Positions 2,281-30,233 of a stretch of DNA of 35,021 bases are shown piece by piece. Numbering within the stretch: position 1 is the stretch's first letter; each line of letters starts with the position of its first letter. This DNA is from a virus. Both the position numbers and the translations under genes were made by a program. The notes beneath the pieces were generated by a model that was given only the letters and a program-made list of their open reading frames with translations, was not told the DNA's origin and made no database searches. The stretch spans positions 1-35,021 of IMG/VR virus record IMGVR_UViG_3300033144_001471; one strand, 5' to 3'.

Positions 2281-3414
2281 TTAGAGTAAGTCAGCAACCA
2301 ACAGCCCACTGGTACGCTGGGAAAATTCCAGATACTCAGGGGTCGTGGTTAGTTCAGGAAATTTCACCGCTATCGGTGCGATTGCCACCGCTTGCAGTTC
2401 CACTGGCATGCGTGCGATGTACTTGCACACAGGTGCCCACGTGGCTGGCTCTGCCCTGTTGCCCACGTGTGTGACGGTAAGAAAGTTAGCCGCTGGGTCT
2501 GTCTCAGGATCAGGCAGTCTTGCACCCTCTGGATCAGACACGATGTCACCGAACGGAACCAACTGCTCATGCAGTTCGAAGATCGCTTCGGTTTCCAGCG
2601 CAGCAGAGTCACCCACTGCAGCAGCAACACGTTGCATGCGAACACCAATGTCCACGTTGTGCCGTCCACCAGCCAGATACTCGGCTGCCTTCAGGTTCTT
2701 GGACGCGTTGAACCACGCACGGGGAGACGGTGACCTGTCTTCGTCCGCGTCGTAAGCGTTCAACATTTCGGGGTTCATCTTGATGGCCGTGGCTATGACT
2801 GGGTGTCCACCATGTTCTAAGAACCACGGTATCCACTCGTCGTCAGTAGGCCCAAGATACTCGTAGACTACCGTCCGATTGCATACCACCGGGTTGAGTT
2901 GGTAATCCAGATTGCCATCATCCGCCCGGTTACCCAGTAAGATGCGGGTTACGTCGGGTGGCCCCACCCAGTCACCGACTGCGATGCGTTCCCCCGCAGC
3001 CATCTGTAACAGGGCCGTGAGAGTGCTTGGGGCTGCCGGAGTGGTCACTTCGTCACCGATCCAGATGTCACCCCGCGCCAAGGCACGCAGCTTCTTACCC
3101 ACCACGAATTCGAAGTGTTCCGGTGATACCTCACCCGGTGGCAAGAATGGCATACCCACCAAGTCCTCACCCGTCACTTGCGACGCGTAGATAGGCACCA
3201 CGTTTGGCTCCCAGTCGTCAGCCAAGGACTCAGCGTCCATGGTCTCAGGCAGGCACGTCTTGCCCAGCTTGGCAATGTTCAACGTGATCTCCGTCTTCCC
3301 TGAACCCGGAGGCCCAAGGATTATGATGGTCAAGTTGGACACCCGCGCACAGGCAATGGCCTGATACAGTGCTTTCCTGCTGGTCAGCACATTCAAAGGG
3401 TCTTGTGTACTCAT
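2281..3414 (-). CDS. MoxR/CobS-like AAA+ ATPase
   Basis: This 377-residue protein has a clear AAA+ core. Walker A GPPGSGKT is at residues 34-41, the MoxR-type TGEDLVGMP segment at 81-89, Walker B IWIGDEV at 117-123 with D121/E122, and a sensor-1 region ILLGNRADDG with N162. MoxR-type ATPases are chaperones that remodel or activate partner proteins, usually together with VWA-domain proteins. The matching VWA protein lies downstream in the same leftward unit. The start at 3414 is supported by GGGAGG seven bases upstream. In phages such genes are often labelled cobaltochelatase CobS-like. Nothing here suggests cobalamin synthesis, so the general chaperone reading is preferred. Confidence 0.9.
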   Translation of the reverse strand: MSTQDPLNVLTSRKALYQAIACARVSNLTIIILGPPGSGKTEITLNIAKLGKTCLPETMDAESLADDWEPNVVPIYASQVTGEDLVGMPFLPPGEVSPEHFEFVVGKKLRALARGDIWIGDEVTTPAAPSTLTALLQMAAGERIAVGDWVGPPDVTRILLGNRADDGNLDYQLNPVVCNRTVVYEYLGPTDDEWIPWFLEHGGHPVIATAIKMNPEMLNAYDADEDRSPSPRAWFNASKNLKAAEYLAGGRHNVDIGVRMQRVAAAVGDSAALETEAIFELHEQLVPFGDIVSDPEGARLPDPETDPAANFLTVTHVGNRAEPATWAPVCKYIARMPVELQAVAIAPIAVKFPELTTTPEYLEFSQRTSGLLVADLL

Positions 3415-3418
3415 ATTA

Positions 3419-3619
3419 TTACCTCCCGGTGCTCAAAGGGTGCACCGTGTACCCATGAAAAAGGTGGAGCCGCCAGTCCTTACGCTGGCCCAGCCTGCCG
3501 TGTCTATGCAGTGTCTGGCGATAGGGTGCCTCTGCTACCTTTCTGCGTAAGCACATAACATCTTTCGATGTATAGAGCATAGGCCAGCCAGTAGCTGATA
3601 CCTTTTCAGTACCCAGCAC
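3419..3619 (-). CDS. possible small hypothetical protein upstream of the AAA+ ATPase
   Basis: This 66-codon frame starts with GTG, preceded by AGGGA four bases upstream. Its TAA stop lies inside the ribosome-site region of the AAA+ ATPase gene, a spacing typical of operons. The product would be basic (LRRKVAEAPYRQTLHRHGR) with aromatic residues towards the end and no recognised domain. The same frame is open upstream to a TAA at 3698, so the true start could be a non-canonical codon, or this could be the tail of a longer broken gene. The surrounding DNA is poor in stop codons in several frames, which weakens the evidence. Confidence 0.35.
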   Translation of the reverse strand: MLGTEKVSATGWPMLYTSKDVMCLRRKVAEAPYRQTLHRHGRLGQRKDWRLHLFHGYTVHPLSTGR

Positions 3620-3789
3620 TTCGTCCCTAGTTGTCGGCTTGTTTAGTACCGTTTCAGCGGTCTCAGGTTGGTCAATGCTCTGCGCTTGAGAGGTCAGTTA
3701 CGGCAGCGTCCATGCCCCGACGTTCTCCTGACTTACTGCGTCTCGTCTGTTCGCAACTTCTCCACGTACTTTGAGTACCTCACTCTCTC

Positions 3790-3807
3790 GCTGGCTACGT
3801 ACCAGTC
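3790..3807. repeat. 18-bp repeat, copy 1 (core CTGG-CTACGTA-CCAG)
   Basis: GCTGGCTACGTACCAGTC occurs here and again at 4237-4254 in direct orientation. It contains a short inverted repeat, CTGG/CCAG, around TACGTA. Read leftward, both copies can encode DWYVAS. It may therefore be a protein-binding site or a remnant of duplicated coding DNA. Confidence 0.6.
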
Positions 3808-4016
3808 GAGGGCAACCAGTCCTGTGCATGTTGATCCGGCTAGGACTAGCGACTCCGGTAAAAAGGTTGATCGTCGGCGGCTTTGTTGCCGAACGTCTGT
3901 CGTGAGAATCTCCGGTCAAGCCGCTGCTCTCACCGTACTTGTAGTTACCATCGGGGTGCGTCCCCGCTTGGTGTCTACCGGGCGTTGCCAATAGGCGCAT
4001 ACGCCGACGATCAATT

Positions 4017-4032
4017 TGTAATTCGAATTACA
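4017..4032. promoter_or_regulatory. palindrome copy 1: TGTAATTCGAATTACA
   Basis: This is a perfect 16-bp palindrome in the gene-poor region between leftward units. It matches the core of five other copies in the window, so it is a candidate binding site for a dimeric regulator. Confidence 0.65.
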
Positions 4033-4236
4033 CTGGGCACTGGTCATTGCAATGCCCCGTCCGCTACTTCACAGGTGCTGAGTGTCACGATGGCCTGTTG
4101 CCCACCCAGTGGTCAGCTATGGTTAGTTTTCCCGTCAGTCGCAGCCCTGAATCTGATTCATACTGGCATTTGCTGATCATTTTTACGCAACCCGCTGAGC
4201 GGGGATTGTTTACACGGGTACTAACTACTCTTCAGT

Positions 4237-4254
4237 GCTGGCTACGTACCAGTC
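4237..4254. repeat. 18-bp repeat, copy 2
   Basis: An exact second copy of the 18-mer at 3790-3807, lying about 50 bases beyond the stop of the last gene of the seven-gene leftward operon. Confidence 0.6.
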
Positions 4255-4305
4255 ACAGGCAGCCTGTTGCCTTCGCGCGCTTCGGGCACCAGTGCCCAAC
4301 GTAAT

Positions 4306-4509
4306 TCAAACTATCGCGCAGTCCGCTGGCCCTCCAACCATGGTGGTTTCAATATGCTTCACGTGCTCCGGGTCGTCAGCTTCGGCTGCGTACTCCGTCA
4401 ACTCCGTGTAGGTCATGGCTTTTACTTTGGCCACGTCATCGTCGGGCACACGCACCATGTACAACTCCGTGGAGCGTTCTTCCAAGGTGAACTCAATGAA
4501 GGTACTCAT
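4306..4509 (-). CDS. small hypothetical protein (67 aa)
   Basis: This acidic 67-residue protein begins MSTFIEFTLEERSTELYMVR, has a predicted strand-rich start and a helical middle, and contains no recognised motif or membrane segment. It is the last of seven small leftward genes. Its ATG overlaps the stop of the upstream gene (ATGA), so it is probably translated by coupling, and no independent strong ribosome site is visible. Such clusters in phages often hold host-takeover or anti-defence proteins, but nothing in this sequence points to a particular role. Confidence 0.7.
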   Translation of the reverse strand: MSTFIEFTLEERSTELYMVRVPDDDVAKVKAMTYTELTEYAAEADDPEHVKHIETTMVGGPADCAIV

Positions 4510-4943
4510 GAGTGGGTGTGTCCGTCTCTCTCAATGCACAGCACCATGCCGCACCATGGCAATGCTATGATGTTGAGCAGGTAATCGAACTGCGCTCTAC
4601 GTCTGAACTCAAGGTATGACGTGCAGCCGTCACAGCTATCGTTGTACTTGTTCAGGATAGCCCGTCGTTGATCCCGTGTCATCACCCGTGACAACGTGTT
4701 GCCATCGAAGGCAGCCGCATTGATCCGTAGGTCACGGAACCGTACCTCTGCACTGTTCATGCGTTCCAGCCTCTTGTCCGACCAGTCGTCAAGCATGTTC
4801 AGCAGTCCGTCCAGTTGATGGACATCTACCCGGTTCGCTACAGGTGCGTGCAAGGGGATTACCGCCAAAGCCTGCGCCAGTGCCAGACGTTGTATTTCTA
4901 ACAGGTTCAGGTCTACACCTTCAATTGTCAGTGTTGCTTTCAT
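4506..4943 (-). CDS. hypothetical protein (145 aa)
   Basis: This 145-residue protein has a helical N-terminal half (LNLLEIQRLALAQALAVIPL), a basic middle, and a CxxC (SCDGC) followed by a hydrophobic C-terminal stretch (YLLNIIALPWCGMVLCIERD). The latter could be buried or membrane-associated. Four Cys near the end might bind metal, but no known zinc finger fits. The start is well supported by GGAGG six bases upstream inside the previous gene, whose stop overlaps this ATG. It is part of the coupled leftward operon. Confidence 0.8.
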   Translation of the reverse strand: MKATLTIEGVDLNLLEIQRLALAQALAVIPLHAPVANRVDVHQLDGLLNMLDDWSDKRLERMNSAEVRFRDLRINAAAFDGNTLSRVMTRDQRRAILNKYNDSCDGCTSYLEFRRRAQFDYLLNIIALPWCGMVLCIERDGHTHS

Positions 4944-6358: not shown

Positions 6359-6382
6359 TGATATGACTGGCTCTCCGTCGGA
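6359..6382. repeat. 24-bp direct repeat, copy 1
   Basis: A 24-base sequence starting TGATATGACTGG and ending CTCTCCGTCGGA is repeated exactly at 6403-6426. It lies in the divergent control region, just upstream of the leftward -35 box. It could be an activator or repressor site, or a phage-specific promoter element. The ATATGACT..CT core loosely resembles T7-family promoters. Confidence 0.7.
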
Positions 6383-6402: not shown

Positions 6403-6426
6403 TGATATGACTGGCTCTCCGTCGGA
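6403..6426. repeat. 24-bp direct repeat, copy 2
   Basis: Exact second copy of 6359-6382, 44 bases downstream (about four helical turns), in the same orientation. Confidence 0.7.
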
Positions 6427-6500: not shown

Positions 6501-6518
6501 GTGTAATTCGAATTACAC
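6501..6518. promoter_or_regulatory. palindrome copy 3: GTGTAATTCGAATTACAC
   Basis: A perfect 18-bp copy on the rightward side of the divergent region, about 120 bases before the start of the gene at 6637. Confidence 0.7.
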
Positions 6519-6572
6519 ATTGCATGATATAGGGCGTGACATAAGAGCGTGCATGTGTCATTATAGTGACTG

Positions 6573-6591
6573 GGAGGCGGTACCCGCCTCC
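6573..6591 (+). other. leader hairpin 1 (GGAGGCGG-TAC-CCGCCTCC)
   Basis: A perfect eight-base-pair inverted repeat with a three-base loop in the leader of the gene at 6637. It has no T-run and is immediately followed by a second similar hairpin, suggesting a structured mRNA leader. Confidence 0.55.
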
Positions 6592-6596
6592 ACGGA

Positions 6597-6615
6597 GATG
6601 AGAACGATTCTCATC
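6597..6615 (+). promoter_or_regulatory. leader hairpin 2, also a Fur-box-like palindrome
   Basis: GATGAGAACGATTCTCATC is a 19-bp perfect inverted repeat around CGA. As RNA it forms an eight-pair hairpin 21 bases upstream of the start at 6637. As DNA it resembles the Fur 7-1-7 pattern TGAnAATnATTnTCA. The RNA reading is as likely as the DNA-site reading. Confidence 0.35.
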
Positions 6616-6636
6616 AAGCAAGTGAGGAAACTCAAA

Positions 6637-7332
6637 ATGAGTAAATCCAAAAAAGCTAAATTCCAGCTTAAAGGAATACCCGCCGCGTGCACGTTAATGG
6701 TAGCCGGACTGAAGGCCGCCAATGATACGCACCTGCAAATGTGTCTTGACGTTGCTGCCAGCTTAGCCGCCAGCAATGCCGGACTGGCCAAGGTTAGCAA
6801 GGCGGACAAGCAAGCCGCACGCACTGCCATGGCTAACGGATTGCGCGCCAATGCCAAGGTGAAAGCCGCAGCAACGCGCTACGACATCACTAGCAACGCC
6901 CTACGTGTATTCTCGTATCACATCAGTGATGCGGCAATAGGCATGCTCAGCCAACCCAAAAAGGCGTTCAAGTCTTTACAGGGTGCACAGGGTGCCAGCG
7001 TAGCAGGTGCCAAGGCATGTGGTCGCACTGGCTCAACTGGCAACGGCAAAAAGGCGGCAAAGAAACGTGCCGCACGCCAGCCGGGAAGCAAGCCAGTAAC
7101 ACCGACAGCCGACAGTGTTATTGAGATCACTGCCAGACGTTTGGGCGGTAGTGTCGCAACCCTTGCGACGGCGATTGACGGAGCACAGGAAACGATGGCG
7201 AATGACAAGGCCGACGTTGAAACCCTGCGCACTGCGATGGCTGCACTGTTGAATGGTGCACAGCCTGTCGAGGGTGAATGGTTACGGTTTATCAAAAACG
7301 CGGCAAACAAGCACGTCGCAGTAACCAGCTAA
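6637..7332 (+). CDS. Ala/Lys-rich hypothetical protein (231 aa)
   Basis: This 231-residue protein has a basic start (MSKSKKAKFQLKG), an Ala-rich helical N-terminal half and a Lys/Arg/Gly linker near the middle (GKKAAKKRAARQPGSKP). A second helical domain follows, ending FIKNAANKHVAVTS. The composition suggests DNA or RNA binding; no family was recognised. The start is set at 6637, where GAGGAA lies seven bases upstream. The open frame extends back to 6448, but that part contains the palindrome and two hairpins and is better read as leader. It forms a single-gene unit closed by a strong terminator. Confidence 0.75.
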   Translation: MSKSKKAKFQLKGIPAACTLMVAGLKAANDTHLQMCLDVAASLAASNAGLAKVSKADKQAARTAMANGLRANAKVKAAATRYDITSNALRVFSYHISDAAIGMLSQPKKAFKSLQGAQGASVAGAKACGRTGSTGNGKKAAKKRAARQPGSKPVTPTADSVIEITARRLGGSVATLATAIDGAQETMANDKADVETLRTAMAALLNGAQPVEGEWLRFIKNAANKHVAVTS

Positions 7333-7347
7333 ACCAGCGTAGTCATT

Positions 7348-7378
7348 GGGGCAGGCTTCCGGGCCTGCCCCTTTTTTT
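7348..7378 (+). terminator. rho-independent terminator
   Basis: A nine-pair GC-rich stem GGGGCAGGC/GCCTGCCCC with a six-base loop is followed at once by seven T. It lies 16 bases after the stop of the gene at 6637-7332 and should end that transcript efficiently. Confidence 0.93.
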
Positions 7379-7494
7379 GTGCCTAGAATCCGCGTTTTTC
7401 CGCATATCCTTAAATCCACGTACACGGCTCCGGCCTTGCTACGCTTGCCTACTGCTAAACCTCACTGCGTTATGGTCTGAGAATGGCCCACGTG

Positions 7495-7733
7495 CTAGGC
7501 TATAGCGCGTCCAGTGTACACAGCACCTGCTAACCCGGCTGCCTGTCCAACTGTCCCGGCCTGCTGCACTGCCACGCCAACGCCACAGGCTACGCCGGAT
7601 TTTGCGATCTGCGTCGGAGCCGCGCCACCCGCCCCGTAACGTAGCCACCGATCTACTACGTAACTACGAAGTGGGGGTCGGAAGCCTACGTATCCGGTTC
7701 TGTTAGCTACAATGGGTTAACCTGTGCCGACAT
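7495..7733 (-). pseudogene. possible frame-disrupted small gene (Gly/Ala-rich)
   Basis: On the minus strand ATG at 7733 opens MSAQVNP and then meets TAG. Adding one base in the following CCC run would join it to a 73-codon open frame. That frame reads IVANRTGYVGFRPPLRSYVV and later AGTVGQAAGLAGAVYTGRAI, ending with TAG at 7495-7497. The composition looks protein-like, but no ribosome site is obvious before the ATG. It could be a frameshifted relic, a sequence or assembly error in the C-run, a programmed shift or chance. Confidence 0.25.
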
Positions 7734-7937
7734 CTGGACTTTTCTACGTAGGCGTTAAGTTTTTGGCCACACGTAGACCATTATACGTAGGAAGCCCACA
7801 GCGCACTCACAATTCTACGGGTAAGTGCTTGATTTCAGAGAATTTTCGTAGACAAATATACCATTATACGTACAAGTATACGTGCGGTATAATTAGGTTT
7901 CCCCTTTAGTATCAAGGAGTTAGGTTGCGTTGAGTAG

Positions 7938-7956
7938 GACAATTACACAATTATAC
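7938..7956 (-). repeat. inverted copy of the TATAATTG repeat
   Basis: GACAATTACACAATTATAC is the reverse complement of the first 19 bases of the repeat at 8059 and 8145, with one mismatch. The motif therefore occurs in both orientations in this region. Confidence 0.55.
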
Positions 7957-7995
7957 GTTTTCGAGGGGACGGCCTCACGTAGAAAAATTACTCCC

Positions 7996-8031
7996 TACGT
8001 TAACGTCTACGCGTACGTTAACCTCTACGTT
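7996..8031 (+). repeat. tandem 18-bp repeat (TACGTTAAC.TCTACG)
   Basis: Two adjacent 18-base units, TACGTTAACGTCTACGCG and TACGTTAACCTCTACGTT, match at 15 of 18 positions, which looks like an iteron pair. Confidence 0.6.
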
Positions 8032-8058
8032 CTCTTGTATGTGTATTATCTTAAAAGT

Positions 8059-8078
8059 GTATAATTGTATAATTGTCT
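8059..8078 (+). repeat. 20-bp direct repeat, copy 1: GTATAATTGTATAATTGTCT
   Basis: Exact match to 8145-8164, spaced 86 bases apart. Each copy contains two TATAAT -10-like boxes eight bases apart. No good -35 box was found at the normal distance, so promoter activity is uncertain. Confidence 0.65.
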
Positions 8079-8144
8079 ATGGATTAGTTAGTTAAGTTGT
8101 TGATTGCAATGCGTAAAGACAATTCCACAACCAGTTATACAGGC

Positions 8145-8164
8145 GTATAATTGTATAATTGTCT
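8145..8164 (+). repeat. 20-bp direct repeat, copy 2
   Basis: Second exact copy, ending 17 bases before the start codon at 8182. It would place a -10-like TATAAT just upstream of that gene. Confidence 0.65.
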
Positions 8165-8181
8165 GCGTAGACGGAGGGCCA

Positions 8182-9168
8182 ATGGCCAAGTTGAAGTATC
8201 GCAAGTGGTTGGGAACCCACGCTACCCACCTGTTGTTCCAGTGCTCTGCCTGCGGGGCCGGGTCAGTGGCGAACGCATGGAAGACTGGCCCTGCTGGTAA
8301 GGGCACTGATCCACACGCTCACTCCCAACGTGCTGTGAGGTACCGTTGCGGGAACTGTGGCGTACAACTCACCGCTCAGATACCGCCACCGGGTGTGCGC
8401 CCGAAGTATCCTACGTATTGCCCTGCCCGTATGGTGTACACCAACACGTTGCCAGCCGTGAGATACCCACGCGTCAAGTCAGAGTCCTCAGAGGTCTACA
8501 ATCGTGTGGCCAATCACACAGGTACGTACCGTGACTATCTACGTAGCGGACTGCTGGGAAAGGACATCGACCACCTTGGGCCGTTGCGTGAGGGATTCAG
8601 TGGCTTCCCTGTCCGACCAGTCGTGGAGCAACTGGCGTACATGATGAAGCTGGGGCTGCCAGCCGTGGACGCGATCTTGGCTACGCTGGCGAGTGAGGCC
8701 CACTACATCATGGCAGTGCCCCCGGCCACCATGTTGTTGGAGAATCTGATCGGTATGCTCACCTCTATGGTGTTACCGCCGCTGTCCCGCCCGGTGCCAC
8801 CGGGGTGGCTGTTCGATTACCCCGTCTCACGCGCGACTAACAACGTGTCGTTCCCGCAGCAACGCCTGTGGTACATCTTCGCCCGTTGTCAGAAGCTACC
8901 GGACATGACACTCTCTACGCGTGACGGTCTCTGCCGGATGTATGGAAGCCTAACGGACACGTTCTCCCCCGTCCGTCCGTACATCCGGCATTGCCTTCGT
9001 CCCCTCCGCGTTGACCAGTACCGCTTCCCTGCCCACACGTTGCCCCGGCCCCATGGCGGAAACCTTGGCCTGTTCTGCTGGGAAGGGTGCCATCCGTTCG
9101 TACGCTTGGACTACATGCGGCAGTACCACATTCACAGGCGTGTGGCCCACCAGTTGGTGTTGCACTAA
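8182..9168 (+). CDS. hypothetical protein with an N-terminal zinc ribbon (328 aa)
   Basis: This 328-residue protein has two CxxC pairs near the N-terminus (C21-C24 and C56-C59), spaced as in zinc ribbons and consistent with nucleic-acid or protein contact. The remainder contains a helical segment (LAYMMKLGLPAVDAILATLA) and a His/Tyr/Arg-rich C-terminus (RLDYMRQYHIHRRVAHQLVL). I do not recognise the family. The start at 8182 is supported by GGAGGG a few bases upstream; the open frame extends back to 8104 but that part lies in the repeat region. Being the first gene after the candidate origin, it might take part in replication or transcription. Confidence 0.8.
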   Translation: MAKLKYRKWLGTHATHLLFQCSACGAGSVANAWKTGPAGKGTDPHAHSQRAVRYRCGNCGVQLTAQIPPPGVRPKYPTYCPARMVYTNTLPAVRYPRVKSESSEVYNRVANHTGTYRDYLRSGLLGKDIDHLGPLREGFSGFPVRPVVEQLAYMMKLGLPAVDAILATLASEAHYIMAVPPATMLLENLIGMLTSMVLPPLSRPVPPGWLFDYPVSRATNNVSFPQQRLWYIFARCQKLPDMTLSTRDGLCRMYGSLTDTFSPVRPYIRHCLRPLRVDQYRFPAHTLPRPHGGNLGLFCWEGCHPFVRLDYMRQYHIHRRVAHQLVLH

Positions 9169-9187
9169 AACTTAACAGGTGTATAAT
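9160..9187 (+). promoter_or_regulatory. promoter candidate (TTGCAC - 16 - TATAAT)
   Basis: A perfect -10 box TATAAT (9182-9187) lies 16 bases after TTGCAC (9160-9165), which matches the first three bases of the -35 box. It would start rightward transcripts near 9194 at the head of the long leader before the gene at 9866. Confidence 0.4.
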
Positions 9188-9483
9188 TATTGCATAGGGC
9201 TGAATACGCGTGGCGTAGCAAGATCAAGCAGTCCGATGGGTTCTACATGACCCGGTAACAACACGTTGAGCCGACCCGGACTGGGCCGAAGTCTCCCGTA
9301 AAGAAACCTGAATACGTAGCGCGCGGCATACGAGACTGCCCTGTGGTTAGGAAGGACGTGAAAGGTTGCACATGTGTACTTGGCCCCCCGGAAGCGACAC
9401 CCCGCAAGTCTTGGTACTATTGCGTTGAACGCACAAACCATCTGCTAACACCACAGTATCTTATTGAATACGAAGAGGAATAA
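9187..9483 (+). pseudogene. possible small gene interrupted by an in-frame TAA
   Basis: A rightward frame reads HRAEYAWRSKIKQSDGFYMT, meets TAA at 9256-9258, and stays open for 74 further codons to TAA at 9481 (ending HLLTPQYLIEYEEE). The amino-acid pattern looks coding on both sides of the stop. No ATG with a ribosome site is present; TTG at 9190 and GTG at 9343 or 9358 are the only starts. It may be a decayed gene, two minute genes or chance. Confidence 0.25.
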
Positions 9484-9489
9484 CCGAGA

Positions 9490-9507
9490 GTGTAATTCCA
9501 ATTACAC
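9490..9507. promoter_or_regulatory. palindrome copy 4 (centre changed): GTGTAATTCCAATTACAC
   Basis: Same as the other copies except CC in place of CG at the centre. It lies just before the structured RNA region and after the interrupted small frame. Confidence 0.6.
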
Positions 9508-9516
9508 TTCATGAGC

Positions 9517-9671
9517 GGGGGTCATTAGCCCAACTGCGATGACCAGTGCGTGAAAGCAAAGTCGCACACTAAACAGCGTGACAGGGCCGGGTGGGAGTCG
9601 TTATCTATCCCCCGCACGTGAGATGCGAAGTAAGGGCTACTCGCCCCCAAAAGTGAGGGCGAATGACCCCC
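9517..9671 (+). ncRNA. candidate structured RNA with a three-way junction (about 155 nt)
   Basis: A ten-pair outer helix joins GGGGGTCATT (9517-9526) to AATGACCCCC (9662-9671). Directly inside it, AGCCC (9527-9531) pairs with GGGCT (9634-9638) and CGCCC (9642-9646) pairs with GGGCG (9657-9661), leaving a tight three-way junction. Within the second arm lie GTGCG/CGCAC (9546-9550/9563-9567), CGTG/CACG (9577-9580/9615-9618) and GG.GGGA/TCCCCC (9590-9596/9608-9613). No protein frame fits. I recognise no Rfam family: no tRNA cloverleaf and no obvious ribozyme core. It could be a small phage RNA or a structured 5' leader. Confidence 0.5.
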
Positions 9672-9798
9672 GAAGCTACATCAGGTGATCTTGGTACATG
9701 CGCAGCACTGAAGTTGTTTAAGCATCCCCATCTGTCACACACGTAGCGGTTACTTATCCGCTGCCATCTACGCCACCACCGTAGGCGGCGGTACCTAG

Positions 9799-9842
9799 CA
9801 CGACGGCGAGCGTCGTGTGTGCCCCGGCTCGCAAGGGCCGGG
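9799..9842 (+). other. two leader hairpins before the gene at 9866
   Basis: CACGACG/CGTCGTG (9799-9817, five-base loop) is followed by CCCGGC/GCCGGG (9823-9842, eight-base loop). A short AT-rich stretch but no T-run comes next, and the ribosome site lies 14 bases further on. They might shape translation of the downstream gene or protect the transcript's 5' end. Confidence 0.5.
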
Positions 9843-9865
9843 ACTTTAATTACATGGAGGGCATC

Positions 9866-10471
9866 ATGCCGAAAGAAGAAGTATTACCACCGGGGAAGCC
9901 CGGACATATCGAAATAGACGACCTACCCGGAGGCGACGCGTTGGCAGCAGAACCTATGCTGGACGAGAACGTGGACTTGCTGGGGCCACAGGCTGAACCA
10001 CTTGTTGTGGAGGAAGCACCCGGCACCATTGGGCTACACGAAGCACGGGAACGGGCACCAGAGATACTGGCACGCAGAGACCCCCCGCTGCCGGATAAGG
10101 TACCGATGCGAACACGTCCCGCACCACCAGCCCAGTACACTCCACCACCTATACCTGCGCACGCTCAGTCCTTGGGTGGCAACACGGCACACGATCCACA
10201 GCCGGATCGGCCAGCACGTCCGCTTGAGAGTGTCCTGCACACAGAGCAGACCCAGCACCACAGGATGAACAACATCACGGATCGGTTGCGTAATATCATC
10301 CAGAATACTGTGGGTGAGAAGCCTGCCAACATGGAGGTACCCCGCAGCGAGACCGCTGTACCTTTGGGCAATGGTGACGTGTCCGCCATCCAGTATTGTC
10401 AGGAAGATGTGAACTTCCAGCTAGATACGCTGGAGCACCTTACTGCTGTGCTGACGGAGGCGTTCGGATGA
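9866..10471 (+). CDS. acidic Pro-rich hypothetical protein (201 aa)
   Basis: This 201-residue protein has a long Pro/Glu-rich, probably disordered first half (residues about 1-130, with TRPAPPAQYTPPPIPAHAQS) and a short helical C-terminal region (QEDVNFQLDTLEHLTAVLTE). No domain was recognised. The start at 9866 is chosen for the GGAGG five bases upstream; an earlier in-frame ATG at 9854 overlaps that site. It heads a chain of four genes joined by ATGA overlaps (9866-11236). It may be a minor virion or scaffold-like protein, but that is a guess from composition. Confidence 0.75.
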   Translation: MPKEEVLPPGKPGHIEIDDLPGGDALAAEPMLDENVDLLGPQAEPLVVEEAPGTIGLHEARERAPEILARRDPPLPDKVPMRTRPAPPAQYTPPPIPAHAQSLGGNTAHDPQPDRPARPLESVLHTEQTQHHRMNNITDRLRNIIQNTVGEKPANMEVPRSETAVPLGNGDVSAIQYCQEDVNFQLDTLEHLTAVLTEAFG

Positions 10472-15611: not shown

Positions 15612-18600
15612 GTGGCAACATCCTTTCATGAAATCGTAAACGTACCGCCTATTGTTGCGCCCGTTCACGGGCAGGTATTTCATTTCACACCAGACAAAGA
15701 CTCTGAGGCGCAGGCCCAGTTAAAAGTCGATTCCTCCCAGTACATGTTCATCAAGCGATGGGATGCTGCGCTTGAAGATTTCATCCATCTTGGCGTTGAT
15801 TTCCTAAAGCTGAATGTCCCCACCTACGTGGCCTACGACGGCAACCGGGTGGAGTACATCATGGGTGCCAGTGCGTTAACCATTGGCGGTGTGTACTGGA
15901 CACGATCCTCTGTTGGTTTGAACATCAGTTCTACAGGTGACAACCGTGTGTGGTTCCAAGGCCACACTGGCAACCTGACGGTAGACTGGCTGAACGCTCC
16001 CAAACTCAACGCTATCTTCGAATTTCATAACGCCTCCCCTACTTACACGGTGACACTGCTAGGCTTCGCATCCAACACGGCGGGTCTGCACATCCACTGG
16101 AAGACTGAGCAGTCGGAAACTTTGGGCGTGGCAGATGAGATCGTTCTTGATCCGGGTGATACGGTTAAGATGGTCATGCGATCCACCGATACGCTGGATA
16201 TTCTGGAAGCCAACTACAAGCTGGTAACTGTGGCTGCACCAGCAGGGCCGCAGGGTGATCAGGGTGCCAAGGGCTTGCGTTGGCTGGAGCCACCGTGGAG
16301 TGGGGGTAGTACATACAACATCGACGATGCAGTTGCTTATCTTGGCTCATCCTACATCTGCCATACGTTCCACGTGTCAAGCGGATTGGATGCTCCGGGG
16401 ATCGGAGCCAACTGGGAAGACTTTTGGGACTTGCTGGCTGCAGAGGGAGATCAAGGGCCGCAGGGTACCAAGGGGACTAAGGGAGACACTGGAGCGCAGG
16501 GTTCAACAGGCTCTCAGGGTGCGCAGGGAGCCACAGGTACGCAAGGGGCGCAGGGTGACCAAGGTAACCAAGGCACAACGGGCGCACAGGGCACCACAGG
16601 CTCTCAGGGAGCCACTGGTACGCAGGGTACGCAAGGCTTCCAAGGCACACAGGGTGTTACGGGCGCACAGGGCACCACAGGCTCTCAGGGAGACCAAGGC
16701 GACCAAGGTGATCAGGGTACAGCAGGCGGGGCTATGTCATGGCTCGGTGCGTGGAGTGGGGCTACTCCGTATGTGATCGACGATGCAGTGTCCATAGCTG
16801 GGCAGTCGTACATCTGTATTCTTGGTCACACCAACCAGACACCTCCCAACGCCACCTATTGGAACTTGATGGCTGACAAGGGTGATCAGGGCTTCCAAGG
16901 CACGCAGGGTGTAACAGGCGCACAGGGCGATCAGGGTGATACCGGAGTCAAAGGTGATCAGGGCTTCCAAGGCACGCAGGGTGTAACAGGCGCACAGGGT
17001 ACGCAGGGCTTCCAAGGTGACACGGGAGTCAAAGGCGATCAGGGCTTCCAAGGCACGCAGGGTGTAACAGGCGCACAGGGTACGCAGGGCTTCCAAGGTG
17101 ACACGGGAGTCAAAGGCGATCAGGGTTTCCAAGGCACGCAAGGTTTCCAAGGCACTACTGGTGCCAAGGGAGATCAGGGCGATGATGGAGCACAAGGTTT
17201 CCAAGGCACGCAGGGTGTAACAGGTGCTCAGGGTGTGGCTGGTGGAGCCATGTCGTGGACAGGTGCGTGGCTCACAGCAACGGCGTACTCAATTGATGAT
17301 GCGGTTGAGAACGACGGGTCTTCCTATATATGCACCACGGCACACACATCAGGTGACTTAGACGATGAACCGGGTGTGGGTGCGGTGTGGACTACCTACT
17401 GGGATTTGTTTGCCCAAGCAGGTGTTCAGGGCTTCCAAGGTGACGACGGGGCACAGGGAACGCAGGGCTTCCAAGGCACTCAGGGCTTCCAAGGCACTCA
17501 GGGCTTCCAAGGCACGCAGGGAGATCAAGGAGATCAAGGAGCCGATGGCGTTCAGGGATTGAATTGGCTGGGTGCGTGGAGTGGGGCTACCCCGTACGTG
17601 GTCAATGACGCAGTTACTGAGGCTGGGTCTTCTTATGTCTGCAATACTGGGCACACTAATCAGGTTCCCCCCAACGCGTCGTTTTGGGACGAATTGGCAC
17701 TGAAAGGCGATCAGGGCTTCCAAGGCACACAGGGCTTCCAAGGCACACAGGGCTTCCAAGGCGATGCAGGTGCACAGGGCGATCAGGGCGATCAGGGTGC
17801 AGCAGGCAGTGGGGCTGATTGGGTTCGCAAGACGGCATATTATCTATCCGTCCACGCTGATTCACTAATAGGCGATACCACGGGCGGGATTTTTACAATT
17901 GATCTCCCCGCGACACCAAGCGCAGGTAACCGCGTGCACGTTGCGGATACCGACACGTCGTGGGGTACCAACGCTCTGACAATAGGACGCAATGGTTCGA
18001 CCATCAACGGAGCGGCAGCCGACTACGATTGTGATATTGATAACGGTAATGTGATCTTCACTTACGTCGGTGGAACGTGGGAGCACATCATTAGTGCTCC
18101 GGGCTTCCAAGGGCCGACTGGTACGCAGGGCGATCAGGGTGATCAGGGCTTCCAAGGCTTCCAAGGCTTCCAAGGCTTCCAAGGCTTCCAAGGTGATCAG
18201 GGTGATCAGGGCGACACAGGCGTAGAAGGATTGGACTGGTTGGGTGCTTGGGGGGCTGGCCCAACGTACGTGATAGACGACGCGGTTACCGATTTGGGAA
18301 CTTCGTACATCTGTATACTGGGACATATCAACCAGCAACCCCCTAATGTCACTTACTGGGATGTGCTGGCAGCTAAGGGTGATCAGGGCGATCAGGGCGA
18401 TCAGGGCTTCCAAGGCTTCCAAGGCTTCCAAGGTTTCCAAGGGTTCCAAGGCGATCAGGGAGACCAAGGCGATCAGGGCTTCCAAGGCTTCCAAGGCTTC
18501 CAAGGCAACGCGGGGGTAGATAAACTCACTGCGGTACCTGCAGATGAAGTTGTTTCTGGTATCACGATTGATTTAGTAGCGGATGTGGCAATGGTATTTG

Positions 18601-18920
18601 GTGACATCTGTTACATAGACAGCGCAGGGGAGGCAGCCAAAGCGGATGCTTCCGCTGCTGGAACTTCCCGTGCTTTGTTCATGGCCACGGGGGTTATAAG
18701 TGCTGATGCCACAGGTACATTCCTTGCGTGGGGTATAGCGCGGGATGACGTTAGGTGGGCGTGGACTGTAGGTGGGGCCATTTACTTATCTGAGACAGCG
18801 GGGGCTATGACACAAACTGCACCGACTACAACAGATTCAGTGACGCAGGTAATAGGCGTGGCTACACATGCTGACCGCATGTTCTTCACACCGTCACCTG
18901 ACCTGATTGTTCACGTGTGA
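15612..18920 (+). CDS. collagen-like tail fibre with five carbohydrate-binding-like modules (1102 aa)
   Basis: The N-terminal 200 or so residues are a non-repetitive, beta-rich domain that probably attaches to the virion. Long Gly-X-Gln tracts follow (GDQ, GFQ, GTQ, GAQ), predicted to form collagen triple helices. Between them lie five modules of about 50 residues with the pattern WLGAWSGATPYVVNDAV, SSYIC, GHTNQ, P, YWD, resembling CBM5/12-type sugar-binding modules. A separate beta domain lies around 735-830 and another at the C-terminus (about 970-1102). The GTG start has GGAG nine bases upstream. A trimeric fibre contacting host surface glycans is the natural reading. The Gly-Phe-Gln triplet is unusual for collagen-like sequence. 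Confidence 0.85.
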   Translation: MATSFHEIVNVPPIVAPVHGQVFHFTPDKDSEAQAQLKVDSSQYMFIKRWDAALEDFIHLGVDFLKLNVPTYVAYDGNRVEYIMGASALTIGGVYWTRSSVGLNISSTGDNRVWFQGHTGNLTVDWLNAPKLNAIFEFHNASPTYTVTLLGFASNTAGLHIHWKTEQSETLGVADEIVLDPGDTVKMVMRSTDTLDILEANYKLVTVAAPAGPQGDQGAKGLRWLEPPWSGGSTYNIDDAVAYLGSSYICHTFHVSSGLDAPGIGANWEDFWDLLAAEGDQGPQGTKGTKGDTGAQGSTGSQGAQGATGTQGAQGDQGNQGTTGAQGTTGSQGATGTQGTQGFQGTQGVTGAQGTTGSQGDQGDQGDQGTAGGAMSWLGAWSGATPYVIDDAVSIAGQSYICILGHTNQTPPNATYWNLMADKGDQGFQGTQGVTGAQGDQGDTGVKGDQGFQGTQGVTGAQGTQGFQGDTGVKGDQGFQGTQGVTGAQGTQGFQGDTGVKGDQGFQGTQGFQGTTGAKGDQGDDGAQGFQGTQGVTGAQGVAGGAMSWTGAWLTATAYSIDDAVENDGSSYICTTAHTSGDLDDEPGVGAVWTTYWDLFAQAGVQGFQGDDGAQGTQGFQGTQGFQGTQGFQGTQGDQGDQGADGVQGLNWLGAWSGATPYVVNDAVTEAGSSYVCNTGHTNQVPPNASFWDELALKGDQGFQGTQGFQGTQGFQGDAGAQGDQGDQGAAGSGADWVRKTAYYLSVHADSLIGDTTGGIFTIDLPATPSAGNRVHVADTDTSWGTNALTIGRNGSTINGAAADYDCDIDNGNVIFTYVGGTWEHIISAPGFQGPTGTQGDQGDQGFQGFQGFQGFQGFQGDQGDQGDTGVEGLDWLGAWGAGPTYVIDDAVTDLGTSYICILGHINQQPPNVTYWDVLAAKGDQGDQGDQGFQGFQGFQGFQGFQGDQGDQGDQGFQGFQGFQGNAGVDKLTAVPADEVVSGITIDLVADVAMVFGDICYIDSAGEAAKADASAAGTSRALFMATGVISADATGTFLAWGIARDDVRWAWTVGGAIYLSETAGAMTQTAPTTTDSVTQVIGVATHADRMFFTPSPDLIVHV
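17007..17150 (+). repeat. 81-bp tandem repeat within the collagen-like tract
   Basis: A 27-codon unit starting GFQGDTGVKGDQG begins at 17007 and again at 17088, nearly identical at DNA level, and partial units flank it. It points to expansion by unequal recombination or slippage. Confidence 0.75.
18147..18191 (+). repeat. nine-base tandem repeat (GGCTTCCAA), five copies
   Basis: Five successive identical GGC TTC CAA codon triplets encode Gly-Phe-Gln. The lack of synonymous change indicates recent expansion or conversion. Confidence 0.75.
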
Positions 18921-18936
18921 GCATGGGAGTTAAATA

Positions 18937-20409
18937 ATGGGCGCACTGTCCGACACACTTTTCCAGTTAAGCGTAGGCCCACAGGGCTTCCAAGGCTTCC
19001 AAGGCTTCCAAGGTGACACGGGAGTCAAGGGAGATCAGGGCTTCCAAGGCACGCAGGGCTTCCAAGGCACGCAGGGCTTCCAAGGCACGCAGGGCTTCCA
19101 AGGCACGCAGGGGTTCCAAGGCGATAAGGGAATGGTGTGGGATACCGCGTGGGTTACATCCAATGCCTATGTCGCGGATGAAGTCGTTGAGAACGACGGG
19201 TCGTCATACATCTGCATCCTTAACCACACGTCAGAGGCAAGCAACGAAGCGGGCGTGGGCGGTCAGTGGACAACCTACTGGGATTTAGTCGCGTCCAAAG
19301 GCGATCAGGGATTCCAAGGCGATCAGGGCGACCAAGGCGATCAGGGCTTCCAAGGCACGCAGGGCTTCCAAGGCTTCCAAGGTTTCCAAGGCGATCAGGG
19401 CGATCAGGGCGACATTGGTGTAGAAGGATTGGATTGGTTGGGTGCTTGGGGGTCTGGCCCGACATACGCAATTGATGATGCGGTTACTGATTTGGGAACT
19501 TCGTACATTTGCATACTAGGGCACAACAATCAGCAGCCGCCCAATGCCACGTACTGGAACGTGTTGGCAGCAAAGGGAGACCAAGGCGATCAGGGCGATC
19601 AGGGCTTCCAAGGCACTCAGGGCTTCCAAGGCTTCCAAGGGTTCCAAGGCACGCCCGGAGCGGCTGACTTCACGTTCAGTATCATTACTGATGACCAGAC
19701 GGATGTTGTGGCAGATGGCAACACGCTTAACTTTGATGGTGCGACGGGTCTTGATGTCACGACACCAGATACAACAGGCCCGACTTACGCGTTCCAGTGG
19801 GCGTTGGACTTTGCAGAACTAACTACACGTACTTCCGAGTTAGTTGGTACGGATTGGATTATTGCGCTGGACGGTACGCTTGAGTGCAAGATCACACTGA
19901 CGAATCTGGCCACTGAGTTGGGAAATATTGGTGGTTGGTATTCGGGTACCTCCATTTACAACAACTCGTTGCAGGTTGGGTACAACTCAGCGAACTATAT
20001 TGATTTTGACCTGACGGACTTCGCCTTCTTCTTCGATAGCATTGAAGACTTCCGGTTTTCTGATGGTGGAGCCGCGTTGTTTAACGGGGATGTCACGGCT
20101 TTCTCCACCGTGATAGCTTCTGACCGAAACCTGAAAGAGAACATCAAGGTTATCCCTGATGCGCTGGACAAGGTGCAGCAGCTTGAAGGGGTTACTTTCA
20201 ACTGGAAACGTGATGGAGTAGAAGCCGCCGGATTGATTGCGCAGGATGTGCAGAAAGTGTTGCCGCAGGCAGTCCGCTTGGTCGATGATGCTTTGAACGG
20301 AGCGGAAGATTATTTGGCTTTGAATTACGATTCGGTAACGGGGCTTCTGGTCGAAGTTGTGAAAGTTCTACTCGCAAGGGTGGAGGCACTAGAAAACAGT
20401 GCCGAATGA
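18937..20409 (+). CDS. collagen-like tail fibre with C-terminal S74 intramolecular chaperone
   Basis: The 490-residue protein starts almost directly with Gly-Phe-Gln tracts. It holds two sugar-binding-like modules (the second very similar to the fifth module of the preceding fibre), then a beta-rich domain (about 250-390). It ends with a peptidase S74 chaperone domain: ASDRNLKENIKVI with the cleavage Ser at about 395, then LIAQDVQKVLPQAV and ALNYDSVTGLLVEVVK. S74 domains drive trimer folding and then cut themselves off. The ATG at 18937 has GGAG eight bases upstream. The end overlaps the next gene by 11 bases. This looks like the receptor-binding fibre or its distal part. Confidence 0.9.
   Translation: MGALSDTLFQLSVGPQGFQGFQGFQGDTGVKGDQGFQGTQGFQGTQGFQGTQGFQGTQGFQGDKGMVWDTAWVTSNAYVADEVVENDGSSYICILNHTSEASNEAGVGGQWTTYWDLVASKGDQGFQGDQGDQGDQGFQGTQGFQGFQGFQGDQGDQGDIGVEGLDWLGAWGSGPTYAIDDAVTDLGTSYICILGHNNQQPPNATYWNVLAAKGDQGDQGDQGFQGTQGFQGFQGFQGTPGAADFTFSIITDDQTDVVADGNTLNFDGATGLDVTTPDTTGPTYAFQWALDFAELTTRTSELVGTDWIIALDGTLECKITLTNLATELGNIGGWYSGTSIYNNSLQVGYNSANYIDFDLTDFAFFFDSIEDFRFSDGGAALFNGDVTAFSTVIASDRNLKENIKVIPDALDKVQQLEGVTFNWKRDGVEAAGLIAQDVQKVLPQAVRLVDDALNGAEDYLALNYDSVTGLLVEVVKVLLARVEALENSAE
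19039..19110 (+). repeat. 18-bp tandem repeat (GGCTTCCAAGGCACGCAG), four copies
   Basis: Four exact consecutive units encode Gly-Phe-Gln-Gly-Thr-Gln, inside the S74 fibre gene. They are identical at every codon, so copy number may vary between isolates. Confidence 0.85.
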
Positions 20410-21392: not shown

Positions 21393-21986
21393 GTGGGTTT
21401 AGAAACACTAGCCCCCACAGCCTTAGAAGCTGATGTCAATTACACCGGACTGACGATTGCGGTAATTGACGATGACCCCAGCCTTGGTACTTCTTTTGCT
21501 AATTGGGATGGTAACGGTAATCCCGAAGCTAGGGTTTCGTTTCCCTCCCCTTCAGGGAATCTGACAGTAGGTGCTGGGCTGCAGTCCTTTGGGATTGGAG
21601 GACGCAAGGGGGATAGCACGGGTGGCAATGGGCCTGTATACGACGTGGAGTTGTGGGAGGCTGGGATATTTGTAGCCACCCTGACTAGCGGTGCAACGTG
21701 GTCTGACTCTACTTCTAACGCCACCATATCCGCTAGTTGGAACGCGAGTCTTTTGTCTGATATAAGCGGTGCTGATGTTGAGGTACGGCTTGTGCAGACT
21801 TCTGGAGCCACAGGTTCGCCGGGTAACCGTCGAGCGATTGAGATTAGTGGTATAGACTGGGATGTAGATTACTCAGAGGGGTCTGCTACATTTAAGCAGA
21901 TGAACCCTGTAGTTGAAGCGAACATTAAGGAAGTGGACGGAATCGCAATAGCCAGTATCAAAAGCATTAACGGAGTGCCGATCTGA
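21393..21986 (+). CDS. fibre-region beta-rich hypothetical protein (197 aa)
   Basis: This 197-residue protein looks like a beta-sandwich adhesion or tail protein: Gly/Ser/Thr-rich strands (NLTVGAGLQSFGIGGRKGDS, TSNATISASWNASLLSDISG) and a short C-terminal extension (KEVDGIAIASIKSINGVPI). That extension resembles linker tails found in phage receptor-binding regions. The GTG start at 21393 has AGGA six bases upstream. Its stop overlaps the next ATG (ATGA), so it is coupled to the short collagen-like protein that follows. Confidence 0.7.
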   Translation: MGLETLAPTALEADVNYTGLTIAVIDDDPSLGTSFANWDGNGNPEARVSFPSPSGNLTVGAGLQSFGIGGRKGDSTGGNGPVYDVELWEAGIFVATLTSGATWSDSTSNATISASWNASLLSDISGADVEVRLVQTSGATGSPGNRRAIEISGIDWDVDYSEGSATFKQMNPVVEANIKEVDGIAIASIKSINGVPI

Positions 21987-22588
21987 TGAGCAGCAAAAAA
22001 TTAGCCCAAGTAGTGGGAGGCGATGATCTAGGTGCCTTCATTGGGCCACAGGGAAACCAAGGCGATCAGGGAACTACAGGCACTGGTGATCAGGGCGATC
22101 AAGGGGACACGGGCACTCAGGGCTTCCAAGGCGATACTGGAGGCCCACAGGGGCCGCAGGGGAACGATGGAGCGGGTGGTGCGCCGGGTGCGCAGGGTAC
22201 GCAGGGCTTCCAAGGCGATACTGGAGGCCCACAGGGGCCACAAGGTTTCCAAGGTACCACGGGTGCCCAAGGCACGCAGGGCGATCAGGGCGATCAGGGG
22301 GCTGCAGGATCAGACGGTGGCACAGGGCCGCAGGGTTCCACAGGTTCGCAGGGTTCCACAGGTTCGCAGGGTTCCACAGGTTCGCAGGGTTCCACAGGTA
22401 CGGCTGGTTCGCAGGGTACTCAAGGTACGCAGGGCGTAGTCGGCTCACAAGGCCCAGCAGGGGCACAGGGGCCGCAAGGCGACCAAGGGGACGCAGGAGC
22501 GGACTATACGGGCGTGACAGTCCACTCAGGGGCTGGTACACCGGGTGCTGGACTGGGTGTGGACGGGGATGTTTACTTCGAAAGCTGA
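21986..22588 (+). CDS. short collagen-like protein (200 aa)
   Basis: After a 20-residue leader (MSSKKLAQVVGGDDLGAFIG) the protein is almost entirely Gly-X-Y triplets. Some are Pro-containing (GPQGPQG), and a run of GSTGSQ repeats lies near the middle. It ends with a compact C-terminal cap (GLGVDGDVYFES). There are no sugar-binding modules here, unlike the two larger fibres. It may be a fibre shaft segment or a whisker-like protein. The start overlaps the previous stop; GGAG lies upstream. The following gene's ATG overlaps its stop. Confidence 0.8.
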   Translation: MSSKKLAQVVGGDDLGAFIGPQGNQGDQGTTGTGDQGDQGDTGTQGFQGDTGGPQGPQGNDGAGGAPGAQGTQGFQGDTGGPQGPQGFQGTTGAQGTQGDQGDQGAAGSDGGTGPQGSTGSQGSTGSQGSTGSQGSTGTAGSQGTQGTQGVVGSQGPAGAQGPQGDQGDAGADYTGVTVHSGAGTPGAGLGVDGDVYFES

Positions 22589-30209: not shown

Positions 30210-30233
30210 GGTGAGGGGGACTTCCCCCTCACC
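30210..30233 (+). terminator. strong hairpin after the capsid gene (weak or partial terminator)
   Basis: A perfect ten-pair stem GGTGAGGGGG/CCCCCTCACC with a four-base loop is followed by only GCTTT. Without a long T-run it may cause partial termination or protect the capsid mRNA 3' end. Confidence 0.6.

Follow-up and report, generated by a model that had tools for sequence, protein, structure and literature searches.

What kind of element fills the 700-bp gap that separates gene 8182-9168 from gene 9866-10471 in this phage? The source, a linear IMG/VR phage record of 35 kb, was analysed as a single window of 35,021 nt, with genes oriented leftward up to ~6.2 kb and rightward beyond 6.6 kb. 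An initial annotation had placed a structured RNA with a nested three-way junction at 9517-9671 within this gap, referred to below as the focal domain. Our answer is tentative: flanked as it is by a repeated palindrome and a gene start, this may be the main domain of a ~360-nt folded 5' leader RNA (9489-9850) for the rightward operon headed by the gene at 9866. The coordinates of the relevant features are collected in Table 1.

Table 1. Structured features, helices and neighbouring elements of the focal locus, and comparable folds elsewhere in the window
Feature	Position	Strand	Description
Palindrome AGTGTAATTCCAATTACACT	9489-9508		One of six gene-boundary copies
Folded domain	9517-9671	+	P1, P2 and P3; z -3.84, 1/1000 shuffles as stable
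Helix P1 (outer)	9517-9525/9663-9671		9 pairs in predicted fold; extendable to 11 (9516-9526/9662-9672)
Helix P2	9526-9531/9634-9639		6 pairs; adjoins P1
Helix P3	9641-9646/9657-9662		6 pairs plus 2; adjoins P1
Alternative pairing	9528-9660	+	GCCC 9528-9531 with GGGC 9657-9660
27-codon ORF	9663-9746	+	Codon score 0.065; possible leader peptide
Downstream hairpins	9672-9822	+	Part of the same structured stretch
8-pair GC-rich hairpin, GCAA loop	9823-9842	+	Poor T tract; possible weak terminator
First downstream gene	9866-10471	+	Unknown function; good ribosome site
Comparable folded domain	3867-4014	-	13-pair helix closing 122 nt; z -4.6
Comparable folded leader	6519-6636	+	z -5.2 plus, -2.9 minus
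Helix A	4288-4313/4019-4044	-	26 pairs, including 4 G-U on the transcribed strand
Helix B	4002-4014/3867-3879	-	13 pairs, then a CCTTTTT tract
Helix C	3842-3856/3466-3480	-	15 pairs, then a CCTTTTT tract

The structure had been judged unlikely to arise by chance. The predicted fold energy of 9517-9671 is -64.1 kcal/mol, a stability equalled by one of 1000 dinucleotide-shuffled controls (z -3.84). The whole of the stability excess comes from the three abutting helices P1-P3, which meet with a single unpaired base; a junction of this kind appeared in 0 of 5000 shuffles, by a criterion set after the junction had been seen. The outer helix, annotated as having ten pairs, is present with nine in the predicted fold, and the two further helices said to abut it were recovered as P2 and P3. 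The several inner hairpins that were also claimed are no more stable than chance, the interior 9532-9635 having a z of -0.26. The three-way junction is the best predicted fold at -67.8 kcal/mol but is not the only one. Together with the extended P1, the alternative GCCC/GGGC pairing gives one long 16-nt arm (11 pairs, an A.G and 4 more pairs), which was also found by a strand-neutral search; at -66.8 kcal/mol, this extended-arm fold is ~1 kcal/mol less stable. P1-P3 lack G-U pairs, and the reverse strand of 9517-9671 folds equally well (z -3.97), so that the strand of the focal domain is not fixed by energy. Among 1342 windows of 155 nt, taken from both strands of the whole 35-kb window, the focal domain ranks 8th; the fold is therefore strong within the phage genome but not unique, and is real as a prediction.

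The natural structured unit, ~9489-9850, is larger than the focal domain. It has a z of -4.38, with 0 of 150 shuffles as stable, versus +0.83 for the adjacent, unstructured 9169-9488, and the sharp edge of structure coincides with the palindrome at 9489. This difference supports the leader reading, as does the 3' part of the locus (9672-9865), which is more stable on the plus strand than on the minus strand (z -2.9 versus -1.4). Further support comes from the noncoding character of the stretch and its position immediately before a gene that has a good ribosome site: the hairpin at 9823-9842 lies just upstream of that site, and the gene heads a rightward run with DUF1508, HTH, and endolysin genes. 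As the initial annotation had stated, there is no convincing protein frame; by codon score, no frame within 9484-9865 resembles the phage's clear genes. The sole candidate is the 27-codon ORF, whose SD-like GAGGG and ATG sit in the 3' strands of P3 and P1. The frame at 9259-9483, upstream of the palindrome and outside the structured stretch, was rejected as a hidden protein (codon score near zero, no Pfam match). The claim that the domain lies downstream of a promoter candidate was not confirmed. A promoter scan reported no sigma-70-type site and none is recognisable beside the palindrome, which counts against the leader reading; by eye, TTGCAC-16-TATAAT can be found at 9160-9187, 330 nt upstream across the unstructured stretch.

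The palindrome follows the pattern AGTGTAATTC(G/C)AATTACACT and has six intergenic copies in the phage, each 16-20 bp long and lying between genes, upstream of one. With up to three mismatches, there are seven matches to the pattern versus 0.73 expected. As GTGTAATTCGAATTACAC, it is found at 4017, 6239, 6502, 9491, 14156, and 27689. As RNA, AGTGTAATTCCAATTACACT would make an 8-pair hairpin; the symmetry, which runs through the central CG in five of the six copies, suggests a DNA site bound by a dimeric protein, not an RNA hairpin, and the copy at 9489-9508 is a probable operator or promoter-associated site. Exact copies were absent from the other IMG/VR contigs and the GTDB species genomes searched.

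That the fold starts at a palindrome repeated six times at gene boundaries supports a leader, and so does the folding around the other copies. In 150-nt windows, the z values downstream of the six palindromes are -4.9, -0.4, -5.4, -2.1, -0.1, and -3.5, versus 0.6, -2.2, -0.6, 1.7, -1.3, and 0.0 upstream, so that folding is on the whole stronger downstream. Two other copies precede noncoding folds as strong as the focal one. The minus-strand fold 4014-3867 begins 2 nt after the copy at 4017-4032, and the plus-strand fold 6519-6636, which includes two perfect 8-pair hairpins, fills the gap from the copy at 6502-6517 to the gene start at 6637. The focal RNA has no significant sequence similarity to the folds after other palindromes (similarity score 12 against minus-strand 3861-4016, shuffle mean 11.6), which counts against the leader reading. 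In the same part of the window, an exact 24-nt direct repeat, TGATATGACTGGCTCTCCGTCGGA, occupies 6359-6382 and 6403-6426 in the gap between divergent genes.

If the locus encodes a leader, transcription controlled at or near the palindrome 9489-9508 would run into it, and the RNA would fold co-transcriptionally, with P1 closing last, once 9663-9671 emerges. We infer that the folded leader would act in cis on its own plus-strand transcript; it may influence polymerase passing the hairpin at 9823-9842, shield the message or affect its stability, or hide an internal ribosome site or otherwise affect translation. The 3' arm of that hairpin, AGGGCCGGG, has an exact copy at 9583-9591, a repeat hardly expected by chance, as it was present in 9 of 5000 shuffles in a test chosen post hoc. 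An attenuator or antiterminator switch through this repeat was rejected because the forced pairing costs 27 kcal/mol; we therefore claim no switch through AGGGCCGGG, and the cost counts against the leader reading, as do the lack of G-U pairs in the focal helices with the equally stable reverse strand, and the interior at chance level.

Searches for relatives were made at the RNA, DNA, and protein levels. In agreement with the statement that the RNA matches no known class, a covariance-model search with 4227 Rfam families (riboswitches, ribozymes, GOLLD, introns, and others) gave no match, even at E <= 10, and ARAGORN found no tRNA or tmRNA in the window. An HDV-like ribozyme, prompted by GGGCGAAUGACCCCC, was rejected on inspection, there being no room for the P1 pseudoknot. 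Blastn against phages and plasmids returned nothing, and searches of INPHARED phages, PLSDB plasmids, IMG/VR, and GTDB genomes turned up no homologous locus; the consequent lack of covariation counts against the leader reading. The protein queries were both flanking proteins, capsid, terminase, ATPase, DUF1508, and glycosyltransferase. In IMG/VR and GTDB the protein-based searches used short exact peptide seeds, which mainly reach close relatives, so that missing homologues are no proof of uniqueness. They yielded one structural-gene relative, L003 (20 kb, ~70% DNA identity), whose sequence does not reach the focal region and which lacks the palindrome. The glycosyltransferase relatives had no other gene in common with the window among the genes tested. 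The terminase (23872), portal (25368), and capsid (29114) genes are only distantly related to those of named phages, with best identities of ~27 to 42%. After the capsid gene, a hairpin GGTGAGGGGG..CCCCCTCACC at 30210-30233 is a possible terminator; its stem is kept in L003 (9891-9914) with the loop changed. Long collagen-like tail fibre genes rich in short repeats occupy 15612-20409 and 21986-22588.

The main rival to the leader is a stand-alone phage small RNA of ~350 nt, running from the palindrome to the hairpin at 9823-9842 and acting in trans, either on messages of the host or phage or on a protein. A discrete structured unit bounded by hairpins on both sides would suit such an RNA, as would the terminator-like site at 9823-9842. 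However, only a poor T tract follows the hairpin, and the terminator scan found this one site versus 1.2 in shuffles, that is, no excess, so that the terminator reading is weak; moreover, the structured unit stops right at the next gene's ribosome site. We consider a separate small RNA unlikely; the initial reading as a small RNA or a regulatory leader fits the evidence, with the leader preferred. The remaining proposed role, that of a packaging-type RNA, finds no support, the terminase large subunit and portal of this phage being ordinary ones rather than parts of a phi29-type packaging system.

A chance fold without function, in a region with runs of G and C (GGGGG, CCCCC, GGGC, and GCCC), is in our estimate likewise unlikely. 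It would account for the rank of 8th, the unremarkable interior, and the equal stability of the reverse strand. It sits poorly with the single shuffle in 1000 that matched the focal domain, with the length and sharp palindrome edge of the structured stretch, and with the recurrence of folding after other palindromes. Less probable still is a DNA-level element, a protein-binding or replication/recombination site in which the inverted repeats work as double-stranded or cruciform DNA. The central symmetry of the palindrome copies and the equal folding of both strands are consistent with it, but the P1 arms are 137 nt apart, far for a cruciform, and a better origin-like region, AT-rich and with repeats, lies at 7333-8181. 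This noncoding, partly AT-rich region carries repeated GTATAATTGTATAATTGTC and inverted repeats of 20-24 nt, and is a possible replication origin; TACGTAG occurs 14 times in the window versus 2.5 expected, five of them within it. Finally, a translation switch in which P1 and P3 mask both the SD-like GAGGG and the 9663 ATG of the 27-codon leader peptide until 9520-9525 pairs with 9539-9544 is very improbable: the SD and ATG are suitably placed and the local hairpin is predicted at several early transcript lengths up to 9612, but this form is ~9.6 kcal/mol less stable and the ORF is very short, with no known relative.

Returning to the leader reading, the stretch is untranslated, folded, and directly upstream of a gene, as in a general structured cis leader. 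Like riboswitch-type and attenuator leaders, it is a long, folded 5' untranslated segment with a hairpin immediately ahead of the first gene; unlike them, it has no Rfam match and no competitive antiterminator pairing. The phi29 packaging RNA is a compact phage RNA with a multi-way junction, as is predicted for the focal domain, but here the terminase large subunit, portal, and capsid are of another kind. The put RNAs of phage HK022 (putL and putR), which make polymerase ignore terminators, are ~70 nt long with two stem-loops, and the copies in the left and right operons are similar in sequence to each other (PMC9378689). Like them, the focal RNA would be a phage-encoded folded RNA early in a transcript, near a promoter or control site, and one of more than one per genome; unlike them, it is a 155-nt three-helix domain within ~360 nt, and the folds after this phage's palindromes are dissimilar in sequence. 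The GOLLD and ROOL large ornate RNAs are likewise orphan structured RNAs from phages and metagenomes (PMC12286853), whereas the focal RNA is much smaller, has no Rfam match, and has no tRNA genes in its window.

Stronger evidence of structured RNA than at the focal domain is found on the minus strand at 3456-4315, where three long-range helices, A, B, and C, abut one another in a noncoding stretch of 860 nt. The 26-nt arms of helix A were found by a strand-neutral search at 85% complementarity, and each of its four mismatches is a G-U pair when read on the transcribed minus strand, a hint that selection has acted on the RNA. There was no Rfam match in 3300-4600 at E <= 10 and no phage match for the stretch, and a hidden protein in minus-strand 3419-4018 was rejected (codon score near zero, no Pfam match). 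A 31-nt direct repeat at 3790-3820 and 4237-4267, with one copy in domain C and the other in domain A, contains GCTGGCTACGTACCAGTC, a hairpin with the loop TACGTA. Elsewhere among the leftward genes, the gap at 1150-1251 downstream of the minus-strand gene 1252-2268 contains a strong hairpin, whose z is -4.1 for the transcribed strand and -5.4 for the opposite one.

The focal domain is thus a credible predicted folded RNA of this phage that belongs to no described family and is probably a leader. If it is not functional, it is a reminder that z values near -4 occur several times in a 35-kb genome; if it is transcribed and functional, it would be an orphan phage RNA. The more interesting lead is the repeated design suggested within the window, a palindrome followed by a folded RNA. 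As a low-probability proposal, the palindrome may mark transcription units in a private control system, several of them starting with a different folded RNA of a new class that acts on polymerase or message; its members would be plus-strand 9489-9850, plus-strand 6519-6636, and minus-strand 4014-3867 within the larger 860-nt stretch.
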